Part shown: positions 310 to 27,510 of the stretch, in pieces
Layout: each line of letters starts with the position of its first letter
How positions within the stretch are numbered: the stretch's first letter is position 1
NCBI GenBank assembly: GCA_902602515.1
Contig: CACKRG010000002.1
Location: forward strand, 1-64,000
Source of the DNA: an uncultured Alphaproteobacteria bacterium
GTDB taxonomy: Bacteria; Pseudomonadota; Alphaproteobacteria; HIMB59; GCA-002718135
Direction of reading: 5' to 3'
Length of the DNA: 64,000 nucleotides
Notes under the pieces: model-generated
What the model was told of the DNA's origin: nothing
Seen by the model: the letters and a program-made list of their open reading frames with translations, nothing else
Databases searched by the model: none
Program-made: the position numbers and the translations under genes

Positions 310-1364
310 TGAGATCTATATTAACAATCTTAGCAAGCTGTTTTTGTTTTTTGTCAATTTTATATATTTTTGTTTATTTGATAGATCCTAATCAGGATAA
401 TACATATTCATATGATTTTAAATATAGCTTTGGCGGTGGTTATGGCCTCTATACAAAGTTAAAAACAAAACTGAAAAATCAACCATCTGAGCTAATCTTT
501 GGATCTTCAAGATCAAGGTTAATTTCAAACAAAGTTTTGAAATCTAAAAATCAAATCCTAAATATGCATATACTATATGGGAATCCAATTGGTATATATG
601 ATTTTCTAATCAGTCTTAATGATAAACAAATTGAGAATATAAAAAAAGTATACGTACTTTTAGATACGCATGTATTTTGTGGTAGTAATGGTATTAATAA
701 ATATTTTGAGAGCAGTCTTACTAAAAGAACTCTAGATCAAATTCAAACCTTTGACTTAAGTAAGCTTATAAAAGCTTATAGAAAGTTAATAATTAATTTA
801 ATGCCAAAGTATACTTTTGAGGAAAATTATGTACCGCCATTTTATGTTTCGCATAATGGCGAAACAGTTTTTGTTAAGACACCTGAATGGGATGGAATTA
901 ATCAAGAGGGATTACATTCTGTACATTTTAGCTTAGAAACAATTAAACATTTAAAATTAATTGATTCGTGGATGGTAGCAAATAAAAAGAAGATAATTTA
1001 TTTTACGCCCCCACACACATTAAATGATTTTATTGCTCATGCAGACATGGGTTATTTAAACAGATTAATCATACAAAGAATTGAAATTCTTAAAAATTTA
1101 AATGGTTTTTATGATTTTTCTTTAGTTCCAGAACTCATGAAAGATAATAGTTTATGGGAAGATAGTTTTCATTTAAATAAAAAGGGACTTGATTATCTTT
1201 TTAACAAAATAAATTGGGATGAATATTATGTTGAAGATAAGGAATATATAAATGCTACTCAAAACAAAATAAATAAATTTAATATTAAATATAATTTATC
1301 TGAGGAACTATCTTATGAAAATTTTCAACGTATTTATAATGATAGTGAATGTAATTCTAATTAA
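309..1364 (+). CDS. SGNH/AlgX-like membrane-anchored putative O-acetyltransferase partner protein
   Basis: N-terminal TM/signal anchor; FGSSRSRL block I-like motif; C-terminal DSFHLNKKG (DxxH-like) block; abuts the MBOAT gene. Confidence 0.5.
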   Translation: MRSILTILASCFCFLSILYIFVYLIDPNQDNTYSYDFKYSFGGGYGLYTKLKTKLKNQPSELIFGSSRSRLISNKVLKSKNQILNMHILYGNPIGIYDFLISLNDKQIENIKKVYVLLDTHVFCGSNGINKYFESSLTKRTLDQIQTFDLSKLIKAYRKLIINLMPKYTFEENYVPPFYVSHNGETVFVKTPEWDGINQEGLHSVHFSLETIKHLKLIDSWMVANKKKIIYFTPPHTLNDFIAHADMGYLNRLIIQRIEILKNLNGFYDFSLVPELMKDNSLWEDSFHLNKKGLDYLFNKINWDEYYVEDKEYINATQNKINKFNIKYNLSEELSYENFQRIYNDSECNSN

Positions 1365-1405
1365 AATTATAGACCTATATAAAGATTTTTAATAATAACT
1401 TAAAA

Positions 1406-2275
1406 ATGAAAATATTATTACTAGGTATTTTATTAATTTGTCTTAATGGGTTTACAGGATCTACTTTTGATGCAATTACTAAATTTTTAAGTCTTAATAA
1501 TTATAAATGGTATCATTATTATAGTGTAGGCCTAACAATAGCTGTTATTACTTTATTAATATTTTTAAAATTTCAAGGCGGAATAATAAAACATATTATA
1601 TTGGAAAAAAATCAATACTATTTTTTACCGTTACTAAGAGGTTTACAATTTGCTTTTATTACACCAATAATATTTTATTCGTTAAAGTATATGCCAATAA
1701 ATATTTTTACTATATTATTAATGACAACACCTTTCTTTCTAATAATTTTTGCAAAATTTATTTTAAATGAAAGGCTTAATTTTATAAGTTGGATTGCTAT
1801 TATTGTAGGTTTTATTGGAGTTTTAATAGTGCTGAAGCCTATAAATGTAAGTATAGATATTTATGTTCTTCTTGTTTTATTAGTTGCTATAACTAATGCT
1901 CTAAGCTTTACAGTAGTAAATAAATATTCTTATATTGCTACGACTTATGGGTTTACTTTATATGGTATTGTTCCAGCTACTTTGATTTCTTATTTATTTT
2001 TTTTTATAGACCCAATATTACCTTCAGGAAAGGAATTTTTATTTTTTGCTAGTTCAGGAATTGTAGTAATGATTTCTGCTTGGGCGTTCACGGCAGCTTA
2101 TCATATAGCTGGTAAATATAGCAGTATAATAAGTCCATTTATTTTTTTACAAATATTGTGGGGCTCATTGTATGGTATTATTTTTTTTTCTGAAAAAATT
2201 AGCACTTTGTCAATTATAGGAATTTTTATAATAATAGCATCTGGATCAATTGCAATTTATAATAGAAATAAATAA
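1406..2275 (+). CDS. DMT family (EamA-like) transporter
   Basis: About 10 predicted TM segments, two EamA-like halves, e.g. 'LNERLNFISWIAIIVGFIGVLIVLKP'. Confidence 0.8.
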   Translation: MKILLLGILLICLNGFTGSTFDAITKFLSLNNYKWYHYYSVGLTIAVITLLIFLKFQGGIIKHIILEKNQYYFLPLLRGLQFAFITPIIFYSLKYMPINIFTILLMTTPFFLIIFAKFILNERLNFISWIAIIVGFIGVLIVLKPINVSIDIYVLLVLLVAITNALSFTVVNKYSYIATTYGFTLYGIVPATLISYLFFFIDPILPSGKEFLFFASSGIVVMISAWAFTAAYHIAGKYSSIISPFIFLQILWGSLYGIIFFSEKISTLSIIGIFIIIASGSIAIYNRNK

Positions 2276-16018: not shown

Positions 16019-16926
16019 TTCTTTTCAGTAGGATCAAAGGTTCCTGCTTGACCAATATCTTCGATAATTTTTCTAATTTCTTTTGATTTATTAAATTTTT
16101 CTTCCAAATATTTTAGATCATTATTCCTTATAGCTTTTTGATAGGTAAGTAAGTCTTCACTGAAACGTCCCAGCATTTCCAAAACAGCTTCTTTATTTTT
16201 TGCATAAACATCTCGCCACATTACTGGATCACTTCCAGCCAACCTTGTAAAATCTCTAAAACCCGCAGCTGAATATTTAATTACTTCATCTTTCATTTGT
16301 GTCTCGAGCTCAGTTGCAGTTCCAACTACAGAGTATGCAATAAGCTGTGGAATATGAGAAGTCATCGCCAATACTCTATCATGACGTTTTGGTTCCATGA
16401 TTTCTATTGTCATTCCAAAAGATTTCCAAATATTTGAAATTGATTTAGTTAAGTTATCATTTGAGTCTATTGGGGTCAAAATACAATATCTATTCTCAAA
16501 TAACTTAGCAAATCCATATTCTGGTCCACTTTTTTCTAATCCAGCAATAGGGTGGGCTGGAACAAATAAAATATTTTTGTTATTAACAGATTGTTTAAAG
16601 TCTTTAATTACACTTAATTTCGTTGAACCAACATCTGTTAAAAACGTTTCTTTAGTAATGTAAGTATTTAACTGATCGAATATATTTTTGTATGAGCTTA
16701 AGGGAGTACAAATAAAAATAATGTCAAATTGATCCTTATATTGATTTAAATCATTTTCTATTTTATCAACAAGATTTAGATTTCTAGAGGTATTTATTAC
16801 TTTATTATCTTTATCAAGAGCAAAAATTTTATTTGATAATTTTTTTTCTTTTAAAATTCTTGCTATTGAAGATCCTATTAATCCCATGCCAATAATTAAT
16901 ACAGACTCATAAGTTATTTTAGACAT
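16015..16926 (-). CDS. tyrA: Prephenate/cyclohexadienyl dehydrogenase
   Basis: 'VLIIGMGLIGSSIARIL', 'VPAHPIAGLEKSGPEYG'; next to hisC-type aminotransferase. Confidence 0.9.
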   Translation of the reverse strand: MSKITYESVLIIGMGLIGSSIARILKEKKLSNKIFALDKDNKVINTSRNLNLVDKIENDLNQYKDQFDIIFICTPLSSYKNIFDQLNTYITKETFLTDVGSTKLSVIKDFKQSVNNKNILFVPAHPIAGLEKSGPEYGFAKLFENRYCILTPIDSNDNLTKSISNIWKSFGMTIEIMEPKRHDRVLAMTSHIPQLIAYSVVGTATELETQMKDEVIKYSAAGFRDFTRLAGSDPVMWRDVYAKNKEAVLEMLGRFSEDLLTYQKAIRNNDLKYLEEKFNKSKEIRKIIEDIGQAGTFDPTEKN

Positions 16927-18271
16927 ATAATTTCTTTAAGCTTTCAACTGTTATTTTCATTTCTTCTTTAGTGCCAATACTAATTCTAAGAAAATTTGGA
17001 AGATTATAACTATTTAATTGTCTTATAATTATTCCATCATTCATTAAATGATTACTAATTTTTTCAGCCTCATCCAATGAAGTTTCAATTAAGGTAAAAT
17101 TTCCCTCAGTTTGTCTTGTTTTAATATTTAAGAGTTTAAGCTCGTTTTCAAACCAACTTTTTATTTCATTATTTAATTTAACTGAATTTATAATATGCTC
17201 TTTATCCTCTAGAGCTTTAATAGCCAAAGATTGAGAAATAGTTGTTGTATTAAAAGGTGGTTTAATTTTATTAATTATATCTGCTATTTTTTGACTAGTA
17301 TAGCACCAGCCAACTCTTAAAGCTGCAAGACCATATGTTTTTGAAAATGTTCTTGTTAAAATAATATTTTCATACTGATCAGTTAAACTAAATCCTTTGT
17401 CATAATCATCTTTTTGTACATACTCGACATATGCACCATCTACGACAACTATAATATTTTTAGAAATACTATTCATTAGTTTTACAAGTTGATCTCTAGA
17501 TAAATAAGTTCCAGTGGGATTATTTGGTGATGCAATATAAATTACTTTGGTGGCTTCATTTATTTGTTCAATGAGATGCTTAATATTTATATTAAAATTC
17601 TCATCTTCCTTAATTTTTTTTGGAACTGCACCTACTACTTTACTTACAATTGAATACATCTCAAAACCATGTTTAGCATGTAATATTTCATCACCATCTT
17701 GACAAAATGCCAAAGCAGCAAACAATAAAACTTCGTCTGAACCAGAACCTAAAATAATTCTATTACTTTTGATTGAAAAATTTTTAGCTATTACTTTTCG
17801 TAGTGATGATCCATCAATTTCTGGATATCTGTGTAAATCATGATTAATATTTTTCATATCTAAGAATTTAACCACCTTTGGGGAAGGTCCATAGGGATTC
17901 TCATTAGAAGAAAGTTTTATAACTCTTTTATTGTTATTATTTAATTTTGCCTTACCGCCTTTATATGCATTAATATTTTCTATAGATCTTTTTGATTGAA
18001 TATTTTCCTGAGTTAATTTTTGAAGTTTTTCAGAGGATTGAAAAATTTCTCTCCAAAGTCTAACTATAGTATCCTTTGGATAAGAGCCTTTGAATTTATC
18101 ACATAACCTGTCTAGAATTTTTTGTTCTCTGGCTAAATCAATAACTGAATTATCTTTTTTTTGTTTTCCAATTTCTAGGACTATTTTTGAACGATCAGAT
18201 AGTAAAGATAATATATCATCATCAATTTTATTAATTTTATGTCTTAAATTCTCTAATTCATCATTTTTCAT
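16919..18271 (-). CDS. hisC: Fusion: AroQ-type chorismate mutase (N-term ~90 aa) + HisC-like histidinol-phosphate/aromatic aminotransferase
   Basis: N-term 'LENLRHKINKIDDDILSLLSDRSKIVLEIGKQK...IVRLWREIF' (AroQ fold); from ~residue 115 'IKLSSNENPYGPSPKV', 'YIASPNNPTGTYLS', 'TRTFSKTYGLAALRVGW' (PLP aminotransferase). Confidence 0.88.
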   Translation of the reverse strand: MKNDELENLRHKINKIDDDILSLLSDRSKIVLEIGKQKKDNSVIDLAREQKILDRLCDKFKGSYPKDTIVRLWREIFQSSEKLQKLTQENIQSKRSIENINAYKGGKAKLNNNNKRVIKLSSNENPYGPSPKVVKFLDMKNINHDLHRYPEIDGSSLRKVIAKNFSIKSNRIILGSGSDEVLLFAALAFCQDGDEILHAKHGFEMYSIVSKVVGAVPKKIKEDENFNINIKHLIEQINEATKVIYIASPNNPTGTYLSRDQLVKLMNSISKNIIVVVDGAYVEYVQKDDYDKGFSLTDQYENIILTRTFSKTYGLAALRVGWCYTSQKIADIINKIKPPFNTTTISQSLAIKALEDKEHIINSVKLNNEIKSWFENELKLLNIKTRQTEGNFTLIETSLDEAEKISNHLMNDGIIIRQLNSYNLPNFLRISIGTKEEMKITVESLKKLYV

Positions 18272-18384
18272 AATTTTGAAAGTTTCTTACAAATTATCTT
18301 ACAATAAATCAAAATAAAGTAGTATTTAATTTAAAAAATGACGATTTATTGACTTAAAGCAATATATAAATATAAGGCAAATTA

Positions 18385-18432
18385 TCACCGATTTGAAACA
18401 GCTTGCGGGTGGAGCAATAATCAGCTAAAGCG
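18385..18432 (+). promoter_or_regulatory. SAM-II-class riboswitch candidate upstream of metX
   Basis: Conserved blocks GATTTG (18390-18395), CTTGC (18402-18406), AGCTAAA (18423-18429); P1-like helix TCACC (18385-18389)/GGTGG (18408-18412); 48 nt before the metX ATG. Confidence 0.75.
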
Positions 18433-18479
18433 TTCACACTCCTCCTTCATTCTTTCAAATAGTGTTAGACTAAAAAGAT

Positions 18480-19628
18480 ATGAAAACAAAATTTACTACC
18501 GATACAAAACTTGAAAGTGAAATAGCATATTTCGAAAATATTGATTTAAAACTTGAATCTGGAGATATCCTTAGTGGTTTTAAACTAGCATTCAAAACAT
18601 ATGGCAAATTAAATACTGATAAAACTAATGCTATTCTTGTTTGCCATGCTTTAACTGGAGATCAATATGTTGCGGGGAATAATCCCATTACTGGGAGAGA
18701 AGGTTGGTGGTCTAGAATGGTTGGGCCTAATAAACCAATTGATACAAACAAATTTTTTGTAATTTGCTCAAATGTACTTGGCGGTTGTGCTGGCTCAACT
18801 GGTCCTAAAGAGTTACAAAATGGAAGTGATGTTGCATATGGTGGTAATTTTCCTTCCGTAACAATAAAAGATATGGTGAAGGCTCAATCTTTATTGATTG
18901 AAAGTTTAAATATAGAGAAGTTATTTTCTGTCATTGGTGGTTCGATGGGAGCAATGCAAGCACTTCAATGGGCAATCGATTTTCCAGATAAAATTTTAAA
19001 TATAATTCATATTGCGGGTGCTTTAAAACATTCGGCTCAAAATATTGCATTTCATGAAGTTGGGCGACAGGCAATAATGAGTGATCCTATTTGGAAAAAT
19101 GGAAAGTATTTTGAAAATAATGAAGTGCCAGAAAGAGGTCTGTCAGTAGCAAGAATGATTGCACATATCACATATTTATCTGAAAATGCGATGCATAGAA
19201 AATTTGGAAGAAAACTTCAATCAAGAGATATTATTTCTTTTGGATTTGATGCTGATTTTCAAGTTGAGAGTTATCTGAGATATCAAGGTAAATCATTTGT
19301 TGAAAGATTTGATGCAAATTCATATCTTTATTTAACAAGGGCTATGGATTATTTTGATCATGATGAAACATTTAGAAAAAATATTGAGTTTAGTCATAAT
19401 CCAAATAACCATTTAAAATATTTAATTATCTCATTTACCTCGGATTGGTTATTCCCTACAATAGAAAGTAAAATGATTGTAAATCAATTAAATTCTCTAT
19501 CAAGAGAAGTAAGCTTTCTAGAAATTGATACTGATAAAGGACATGATAGTTTTTTATTAGAGGAACCACAGTTAGATGATGTAATAAAAGGTTTCCTAAC
19601 AAACAACTTTGCGAAGATAGATGAATAA
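18480..19628 (+). CDS. metX: Homoserine O-acetyltransferase
   Basis: 'CHALTGDQYVAG', 'GGSMGAMQALQWAIDFP', 'DKGHDSFLLE'. Confidence 0.95.
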   Translation: MKTKFTTDTKLESEIAYFENIDLKLESGDILSGFKLAFKTYGKLNTDKTNAILVCHALTGDQYVAGNNPITGREGWWSRMVGPNKPIDTNKFFVICSNVLGGCAGSTGPKELQNGSDVAYGGNFPSVTIKDMVKAQSLLIESLNIEKLFSVIGGSMGAMQALQWAIDFPDKILNIIHIAGALKHSAQNIAFHEVGRQAIMSDPIWKNGKYFENNEVPERGLSVARMIAHITYLSENAMHRKFGRKLQSRDIISFGFDADFQVESYLRYQGKSFVERFDANSYLYLTRAMDYFDHDETFRKNIEFSHNPNNHLKYLIISFTSDWLFPTIESKMIVNQLNSLSREVSFLEIDTDKGHDSFLLEEPQLDDVIKGFLTNNFAKIDE

Positions 19629-26217: not shown

Positions 26218-27510
26218 ATGAAATTAAATAAAATAATAAAAAATATTTCAATATTATTTATTTTTTTATATCCATTCTCTTTAAATGCCTCAAGTAATGA
26301 AGAAGAAAAATATAGATATCTAGATTTATTTGGACAAGTTTTTGATCGTGTACGTTCATCTTATGTTGAAGAAGTTAGTGATAAAGAATTAATTGAAAAA
26401 GCTATTGACGGAATGTTGTCAGGTTTAGATCCTCACTCAGGATATATGAATGAGGAAATATGGCAAGAGATGCAATTAGATACCAAGGGTAAATTTGGTG
26501 GTCTAGGTATTGAAATTACGATGGAAGAAGGTTTTGTAAAAATAATTTCACCAATTGAAGATACACCAGCTTATAAGGCAGGATTATTAGCAGGTGACTT
26601 TATAATACAAATTGATGAAACTCCTGTGTTTGGACTAACCTTAAATGAAGCTGTAGAGTTAATGCGTGGAGAAAAAGGACAGCCAATAATTGTAACAATT
26701 TCAAGAGAGGGGGCTGAGCCATTTGATGTTGAAATAATTAGAGATTATATAAATATTAGGTCAGTAAAAAGTGAAATCATAGATGATATTGGATATTTAA
26801 GAATAACATCTTTTAATGAACAAACTGAGAAGGGTTTAATTGAAGCAATAAAAGAAATTCAATCTACTACCAATAATCCTAAAGGTTATGTTTTAGATGT
26901 AAGATCAAATCCAGGTGGATTACTTTCACAAGCTGTAAAAGTCACAGATATTTTTCTAGAAAGGGGAGAAATAGTTTCAACAAGAGGTAGAGATAAAAAA
27001 GACATAAAAAGATACAGAGCAAAACAAAATGATAAGACTCTTGGAAAACCACTTGTTGTAATAATTGATGGAGGCTCAGCCTCAGCCTCAGAAATAGTTG
27101 CAGGTGCCTTGCAAGACCATAAAAGAGCAATAGTAGTTGGCACACAATCATTTGGAAAGGGCTCAGTTCAAACTATTATGCCATTTCAAGTAAACAATAG
27201 TGAAAATTTAACTGGAATTAGACTAACAACTGCTAGATATTACACACCATCTGGAAAATCAATACAAGGAAAGGGTATTACTCCAGATATAATTATAGAA
27301 CAAGGTGAGTTTGAGTCTTTTGATTTTAAAACATTGTCAGAGGCAGATCTTAAAGATTCTTTAGATAGTGGACAAACAAATGTAAACCAAGATGAAGATT
27401 CTAAAAAAATGTTAACAGAATTTGAGAAAAGATTAGAGATTGACTATCAACTTCAAAGAGCAATTGATTTAGTTAAGGGAATTAGTTTATATAACTTGAG
27501 AGATAATTAA
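26218..27510 (+). CDS. ctpA: S41 family C-terminal processing peptidase
   Basis: Signal peptide, PDZ domain, 'VLDVRSNPGGLLSQAVKV' and 'IDGGSASASEIVAGALQDHKRAIVVGTQSFGKGSVQ'. Confidence 0.95.
   Translation: MKLNKIIKNISILFIFLYPFSLNASSNEEEKYRYLDLFGQVFDRVRSSYVEEVSDKELIEKAIDGMLSGLDPHSGYMNEEIWQEMQLDTKGKFGGLGIEITMEEGFVKIISPIEDTPAYKAGLLAGDFIIQIDETPVFGLTLNEAVELMRGEKGQPIIVTISREGAEPFDVEIIRDYINIRSVKSEIIDDIGYLRITSFNEQTEKGLIEAIKEIQSTTNNPKGYVLDVRSNPGGLLSQAVKVTDIFLERGEIVSTRGRDKKDIKRYRAKQNDKTLGKPLVVIIDGGSASASEIVAGALQDHKRAIVVGTQSFGKGSVQTIMPFQVNNSENLTGIRLTTARYYTPSGKSIQGKGITPDIIIEQGEFESFDFKTLSEADLKDSLDSGQTNVNQDEDSKKMLTEFEKRLEIDYQLQRAIDLVKGISLYNLRDN

Follow-up and report, generated by a model that had tools for sequence, protein, structure and literature searches.

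The best-described relatives of the metX leader analyzed here are the SAM-II RNAs covered by the Rfam model RF00521 (SAM_alpha), among them that of Pelagibacteraceae metX (SAR11_0217, PMC2704228). Located in a 64,000-nucleotide stretch of DNA, referred to as the window, the leader has in common with these RNAs the core CCGAUUUGA..CAGCUUGCGGG..CAGCUAAAGCG, an H-type pseudoknot formed by P1 and P2, and the metX context. It differs from them in P1, which is UCACC/GGUGG (4 to 5 pairs) instead of GCGCC/GGCGC. Unlike the terminator-ended SAM-II RNAs of alphaproteobacteria, it has no intrinsic terminator, a predicted AU-rich alternative hairpin, and a 47-nucleotide spacer to the AUG. Translational control is not foreign to the class. 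It has been proposed for the Sargasso Sea metX SAM-II RNA, as far as the discussion in PMC6061858 goes, and the Sinorhizobium (S.) meliloti metA leader is a translational SAM-II riboswitch (PMC9373788). These two RNAs resemble the present leader in their aptamer and in the control proposed for them. However, their Shine-Dalgarno (SD) sequence lies in or directly beside P2, whereas the start region is found here 40 to 50 nucleotides downstream, and an antisequestor hairpin together with a sequestor of its own is predicted to bridge this distance. SAM-V riboswitches (RF01826; metY and bhmT of "Ca. Pelagibacter ubique") show the same ligand-binding core and triplex fold but differ in P2, spacing, and expression platform, and their model gave no match here. 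The solved SAM-V structure can be superposed on SAM-II (PMC6061858).

The leaders described in this study are new, diverged members of the known SAM-II class with an unusual platform. In the literature searched, most subscription papers lying outside it, we came across no description of SAM-II elements for the AEGEAN-169/HIMB59-type lineage, to which we take the window to belong. Its order consists of streamlined marine alphaproteobacteria. Across this whole order of abundant marine bacteria, a SAM riboswitch goes unreported by current Rfam annotation, so that the regulation of methionine synthesis is invisible in standard pipelines.

The metX leader and its gene context

An initial annotation, made from the sequence alone, had placed a SAM-II-class riboswitch candidate between hisC and metX on account of three blocks in the metX leader. 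All three were read directly: GATTTG at 18390-18395, CTTGC at 18402-18406, and AGCTAAA at 18423-18429. The pattern GATTTG-N2..8-GCTTGC-N8..30-GCTAAA occurred a single time in the 64-kb window and in 0 of 100 dinucleotide shuffles. The 5-bp P1 helix with one G-U pair that had been proposed is present as well (TCACC with GGTGG, the G-U pair being U18385.G18412), and the flanking genes had been named correctly, with hisC divergent and metX followed by metW (Table 1). As is usual for SAM-II, the element stands upstream of methionine/SAM genes (metX-metW), and the same applies to the metX leaders of relatives.

Table 1. Positions of the leader elements and genes in the window
Feature	Position	Strand	Sequence	Basis or remark
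Promoter-like element	18349..18376	+	TTGACT - 16 nt - TATAAG	Read in sequence; putative
SAM-II aptamer, H-type pseudoknot	18385..18432	+		Sole significant genome match of R1 and R2; conserved in the order's metX leaders
P1 5' strand	18385..18389	+	UCACC	Pairs with 18408-18412; P1 covariation between lineages
L1	18390..18395	+	GAUUUG	Putative major-groove third strand of triplex, by homology (PMC6061858)
P2 5' strand	18399..18406	+	CAGCUUGC	Alignment and pairing analysis
P1 3' strand	18408..18412	+	GGUGG	Alignment and covariation
P2 3' strand	18424..18432	+	GCUAAAGCG	GCUAAA invariant in 26-core alignment; mapping from PMC6061858
Anti-aptamer strand	18439..18464	+	CUCCUCCUUCAUUCUUUCAAAUAGUG	Predicted partner of 18386-18414 without SAM
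Start-codon sequestering strand	18446..18455	+	UUCAUUCUUU	Predicted pairing with 18474-18484 when aptamer is occupied
UUCAU	18447-18451	+	UUCAU	Within sequestering strand
Putative antisequestor segment	18453-18460	+	UUUCAAAU	Inside anti-aptamer strand
Translation start region	18474..18484	+	AAAGAUAUGAA	Weak SD-like AAAGA; metX AUG (18480)
metX	18480..19628	+		Homoserine O-acetyltransferase, putative regulated gene; NF001209, 509 bits (cutoff 331)
metW	from 19621	+		Overlaps metX end; TIGR02081, 235 bits (cutoff 189.5)

The hisC-type aminotransferase gene (16919-18271, minus strand) encodes a fused N-terminal type II chorismate mutase domain and adjoins a prephenate dehydrogenase gene; its product may be an aromatic-pathway aminotransferase rather than one specific for histidinol phosphate. 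Elsewhere in the window, an Rfam match to the Rickettsia sRNA Rp_sR47 (62.1 bits, 27055-27178, minus strand) lies antisense within a carboxy-terminal-protease-like gene (26218-27510, plus strand). It is probably conserved coding sequence and not an sRNA.

Covariance model searches and aptamer class

A stock Rfam scan of the window and its relatives, in gathering and E-value modes, yielded nothing significant, and the eleven relatives gave zero Rfam matches. At the metX leader, RF00521 reached 12.3 bits against a gathering cutoff of 36 (E of 2.7 per genome), and the SAM-V model RF01826 produced no match with E up to 10, either in 451 nucleotides or in the whole genome. The initial annotation had named a significant hit with one of these two models as its own check, and taken literally this outcome speaks against it. 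The RF00521 cutoff, however, sets a limit for detection; it does not describe the structure of the SAM-II class. Of the order's other SAM-II-like loci, several score below it too, at 23 to 30 bits, and at least one sister-genus leader that does carry a terminator (L222) is unlisted by RF00521. What the miss shows is that the stock model lacks sensitivity for this lineage; it is no evidence against the site. Chance resemblance could be argued from the 12.3 bits and from the five chance sites in the genome that outscore the metX leader with RF00521. Set against it are the conservation throughout the order, the covariation of P1, the 0 of 100 shuffles, and the R2 search described below; its probability is negligible, and we count it as already refuted.

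The homology of the aptamer was shown by comparison. Among the metX leaders examined, those of the window's genus and those of a sister family (only 62% MetX identity) had the arrangement CACC-GAUUUG-n-(C)AGCUUGC-GGGUG-n-CAGCUAAAGCG. A covariance model built from 20 of the order's new leaders (R1) matched 123 of 162 genomes of the order, many of which are incomplete, and detected no second copy in the window's genome. Outside the order, it returned loci in many alphaproteobacterial families with E values of 5e-11 to 1e-7. Five of the 15 best of these outside loci (L198, L205, L207, L208, and L210) passed the RF00521 cutoff at a coincident position, all with the identical core string CCGAUUUGA..CAGCUUGCGGG..CAGCUAAAGCG. 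SAM-II RNAs of Pelagibacteraceae were scored weakly by R1 (16 bits and below), and the reverse test was therefore made with a second model, R2, whose seven source sequences were SAM-II RNAs above the RF00521 cutoff from other alphaproteobacteria, with zero from the window's order. In the 1.43-Mb genome, the sole significant site of R2 was window positions 18375-18446, with 37.6 bits and an E value of 1.1e-10; the next site had an E value of 0.57. The core matched base by base in the R2 alignment. R2 also recovered the other leaders of the order and those of Pelagibacteraceae, whose metX leaders are canonical SAM-II RNAs nearly always followed by a terminator. Its placement in front of metX is common to both families of the order and to Pelagibacteraceae. 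Taken together, the near-invariant core, the R2 match, and the P1 covariation outweigh the Rfam failure: judged by these comparisons, the SAM-II aptamer is real, and it would be expected to bind SAM. The match of a SAM-II-derived model thus bears out the initial reading of the site as a SAM-II/SAM-V-type aptamer.

That reading had left the class as either II or V. SAM-V RNAs have the GAUUUG/UUGC/AGCUAAA core and the fold in common with the present leader (PMC6061858, PMC2704228) and are typical of marine alphaproteobacteria, yet RF01826 did not match the site. SAM-V, moreover, is described as having the AUG within about ten nucleotides and as without the final 3' pairing element (PMC2704228), whereas in this leader 47 nucleotides separate G18432 from A18480 and P2 is extendable. 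Finally, CAGCUUGC...GCUAAAGCG recurs without any difference in SAM-II RNAs above the RF00521 cutoff. On these sequence grounds, the class is SAM-II and not SAM-V, for which we see a very small likelihood. The predicted ligand is independent of this choice because both classes share fold and binding core (PMC6061858, PMC2704228).

Additional SAM-II-like elements were noticed in the order, with 31 to 40 bits for R1 and 23 to 30 bits, below the cutoff, for RF00521 (L212 and L214 in G036 and G151; L213, L215, and L218 in G036, G151, and G165). The genes that follow them, named by eye from translations, encode a rhodanese-type sulfurtransferase and a betaine-homocysteine methyltransferase-like protein. 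SAM-II-like elements of the sister family (L219, L220, L226, L227, L230, and L231) precede short open reading frames, MAKQDIKIYKVKSKEDYIRQREKD... and MPMKKLTLKEIRE..., of unknown function. Outside the order, locus L197 of genome G264 (1348-1531, minus strand) shows a possible tandem of SAM-II (28.5 bits) and then SAM-V (34.9 bits). Both scores are just under the Rfam cutoffs (41 for SAM-V), and the arrangement resembles the bhmT tandem of "Ca. P. ubique."

Architecture of the aptamer

Pairing was evaluated in an alignment (A2) of 26 SAM-II cores from HIMB59-type bacteria, Pelagibacteraceae, and other alphaproteobacteria. In P1, 98% of the cells were paired, and changes on both sides were observed at four of the five pairs. 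The structure score of 0.23, compared with 0.12 in shuffles, was reached by 0 of 500 shuffles, and the whole structure stood above all 500 in pairing and covariation and above every slid register. Pairing of P2 is complete in the window's order. Its four inner pairs never vary and, being invariant, are uninformative for or against the helix, while the outer pairs 21-52 and 22-51 (alignment numbering) were paired in 17 of 26 cores.

The pseudoknot consists of GCUUGC against GCUAAAGC. If its homology to the solved SAM-V structure (PMC6061858) is followed, its inner P2 pairs would be C18406-G18424, G18405-C18425, U18404-A18427, and U18403-A18428, with a possible extension by C18402-G18430, G18401-C18431, and C18399-G18432. 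U18426 and A18429 would then face the ligand, corresponding to U47 and A50, which hold SAM in metY SAM-V (PMC6061858). The pseudoknot suggested initially (GCTT 18401-18404 with AAGC 18428-18431) was placed at the right position, but by the same homology its register is off by one inside the ligand site.

In all 26 sequences, the SAM-contacting nucleotides (UUU of L1, UUGC, and GCUAAA) were invariant; within L1, the invariance covers AUUU, and GAUUUG is found in every HIMB59-type leader. Since the support for the aptamer is sequence conservation and P1 is short, at 4 to 5 pairs, the leaders could also be pictured as a conserved metX element of aptamer ancestry that has lost SAM binding or responds to another ligand. 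Against this, all SAM-contacting nucleotides of the solved relatives are kept throughout two families whose MetX proteins are about 60% identical, and metX is a SAM-pathway gene. We assign a small likelihood to such a loss or change of ligand.

Expression platform

In every metX leader of the genus, a TATTGAC block and an AT-rich -10 region stand at a constant distance from the aptamer. The promoter-like element of the window was skipped by a simple promoter scanner, which requires T at the last -10 position. As read from the sequence, transcription probably starts around 18383-18385, where P1 has its first base; the RNA would probably begin with the aptamer because only a few bases separate the end of the promoter-like element from P1 and because the placement of this element is conserved. 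No intrinsic terminator was present in the window's leader or in 25 representative leaders of the order, as judged by reading of the sequences and by a crude script that missed some obvious terminators in other alphaproteobacteria. The leader accordingly lacks the intrinsic terminator after the aptamer that marks the terminating subtype of SAM-II. Two sister genera of the same family, G163 and G168 (L222 and L223), possess a strong terminator, and the MetX tree is compatible with its being either ancestral or regained.

When leaders were folded to just before the start region, one long hairpin was predicted in nearly every case: the downstream leader is its one strand, the aptamer's 5' half together with the P1 3' strand is the other, and CAGCUAAAGCG is left in the loop. 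The free fold of the window (leader plus first codons, -19.4 kcal/mol) pairs 18386-18414 with 18439-18464. Relative to shuffles of the downstream part only, the hairpin was significant in 19 of 25 leaders (p<0.05; mean z of -2.7). Duplex energies between the aptamer 5' half and the downstream leader agreed (mean z of -2.1), and the excess complementarity gave Fisher p-values of 4e-11 for hairpin stability and 8e-8 for duplex energy in a reduced set of 14 representatives, combined values that are indicative because the representatives are related. In one clade, the register of the alternative helix paired 85% of cells versus 28 to 47% when slid. Covariation within this helix was weak (33 of 500 shuffles), as expected where one strand is fixed by ligand binding. 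The predicted antisequestor hairpin is well supported by these calculations.

The SAM-bound state was only approximated, by blocking the aptamer in the fold, apart from any pseudoknot energy. Under this constraint, 18446-18455 paired with 18474-18484 across the AUG, and the predicted accessibility of the window's start region decreased from 0.88 to 0.26, compared with a drop of 0.03 ± 0.06 in shuffled controls. A decrease was predicted for most of about 30 close relatives and was missing in some, for example L070 and L091, for which zero change was predicted. The mean change across the 25 leaders was only 0.06, and more distant leaders differed. Pairing between the downstream leader and the start region did not exceed that of shuffles in the reduced set (p = 0.18), which leaves a uniform start-sequestration rule for all leaders unsupported. 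For this reason, the start-codon step is claimed for the window's own lineage only, where the folding model makes sequestration likely.

Under the mechanism we propose, the transcript would begin approximately where P1 does. At low SAM concentrations, the 5' half of the aptamer, made up of both P1 strands, L1, and the P2 5' strand, would pair with 18439-18464 in one long hairpin, holding CAGCUAAAGCG in the loop; the start region would be single-stranded, allowing metX to be translated. Upon SAM binding, L1, P2, and P1 would form the triplex pseudoknot and free the downstream strand, from which UUCAUUCUUU would pair over AAAGAUAUGAA, AUG included, and turn translation off. The main rival is a SAM-II riboswitch with a transcription-level platform, in which SAM would break the long hairpin and expose the C-rich, weakly structured stretch 18433-18460 to Rho-dependent termination, or in which termination would occur inside metX. 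Terminator control is the common SAM-II mode, encountered in G163, G168, and Pelagibacteraceae, and a C-rich patch directly 3' of the aptamer, perhaps the remnant of a terminator 5' arm, is kept in nearly all leaders; the alternative hairpin also has stronger support over the set of leaders than does the start-codon step. Given the absence of an intrinsic terminator from the window and the 25 leaders checked, we nevertheless judge this platform unlikely. It appears fairly probable that metX(-metW) is under the control of a SAM-II riboswitch that probably works as an OFF switch of translation, for which we infer SAM binding, the direction of regulation, and the start-codon step.

Within the order, the SAM-II aptamer may have stayed fixed while its platform changed, with repeated loss (or gain) of the terminator, whose place was taken by a long antisequestor hairpin together with a start-codon sequestor. 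This would be a distal translational mechanism undescribed for SAM-II, and we regard the case for it as evenly balanced. The leaders with and without a terminator represent a natural series for the rewiring of one aptamer to a new platform. In Pelagibacteraceae leaders L105 to L121, AGCUAAA of the aptamer has a complement, UUUAGCU, located in loop and stem of the downstream terminator, and an antiterminator pairing between the two is plausible.
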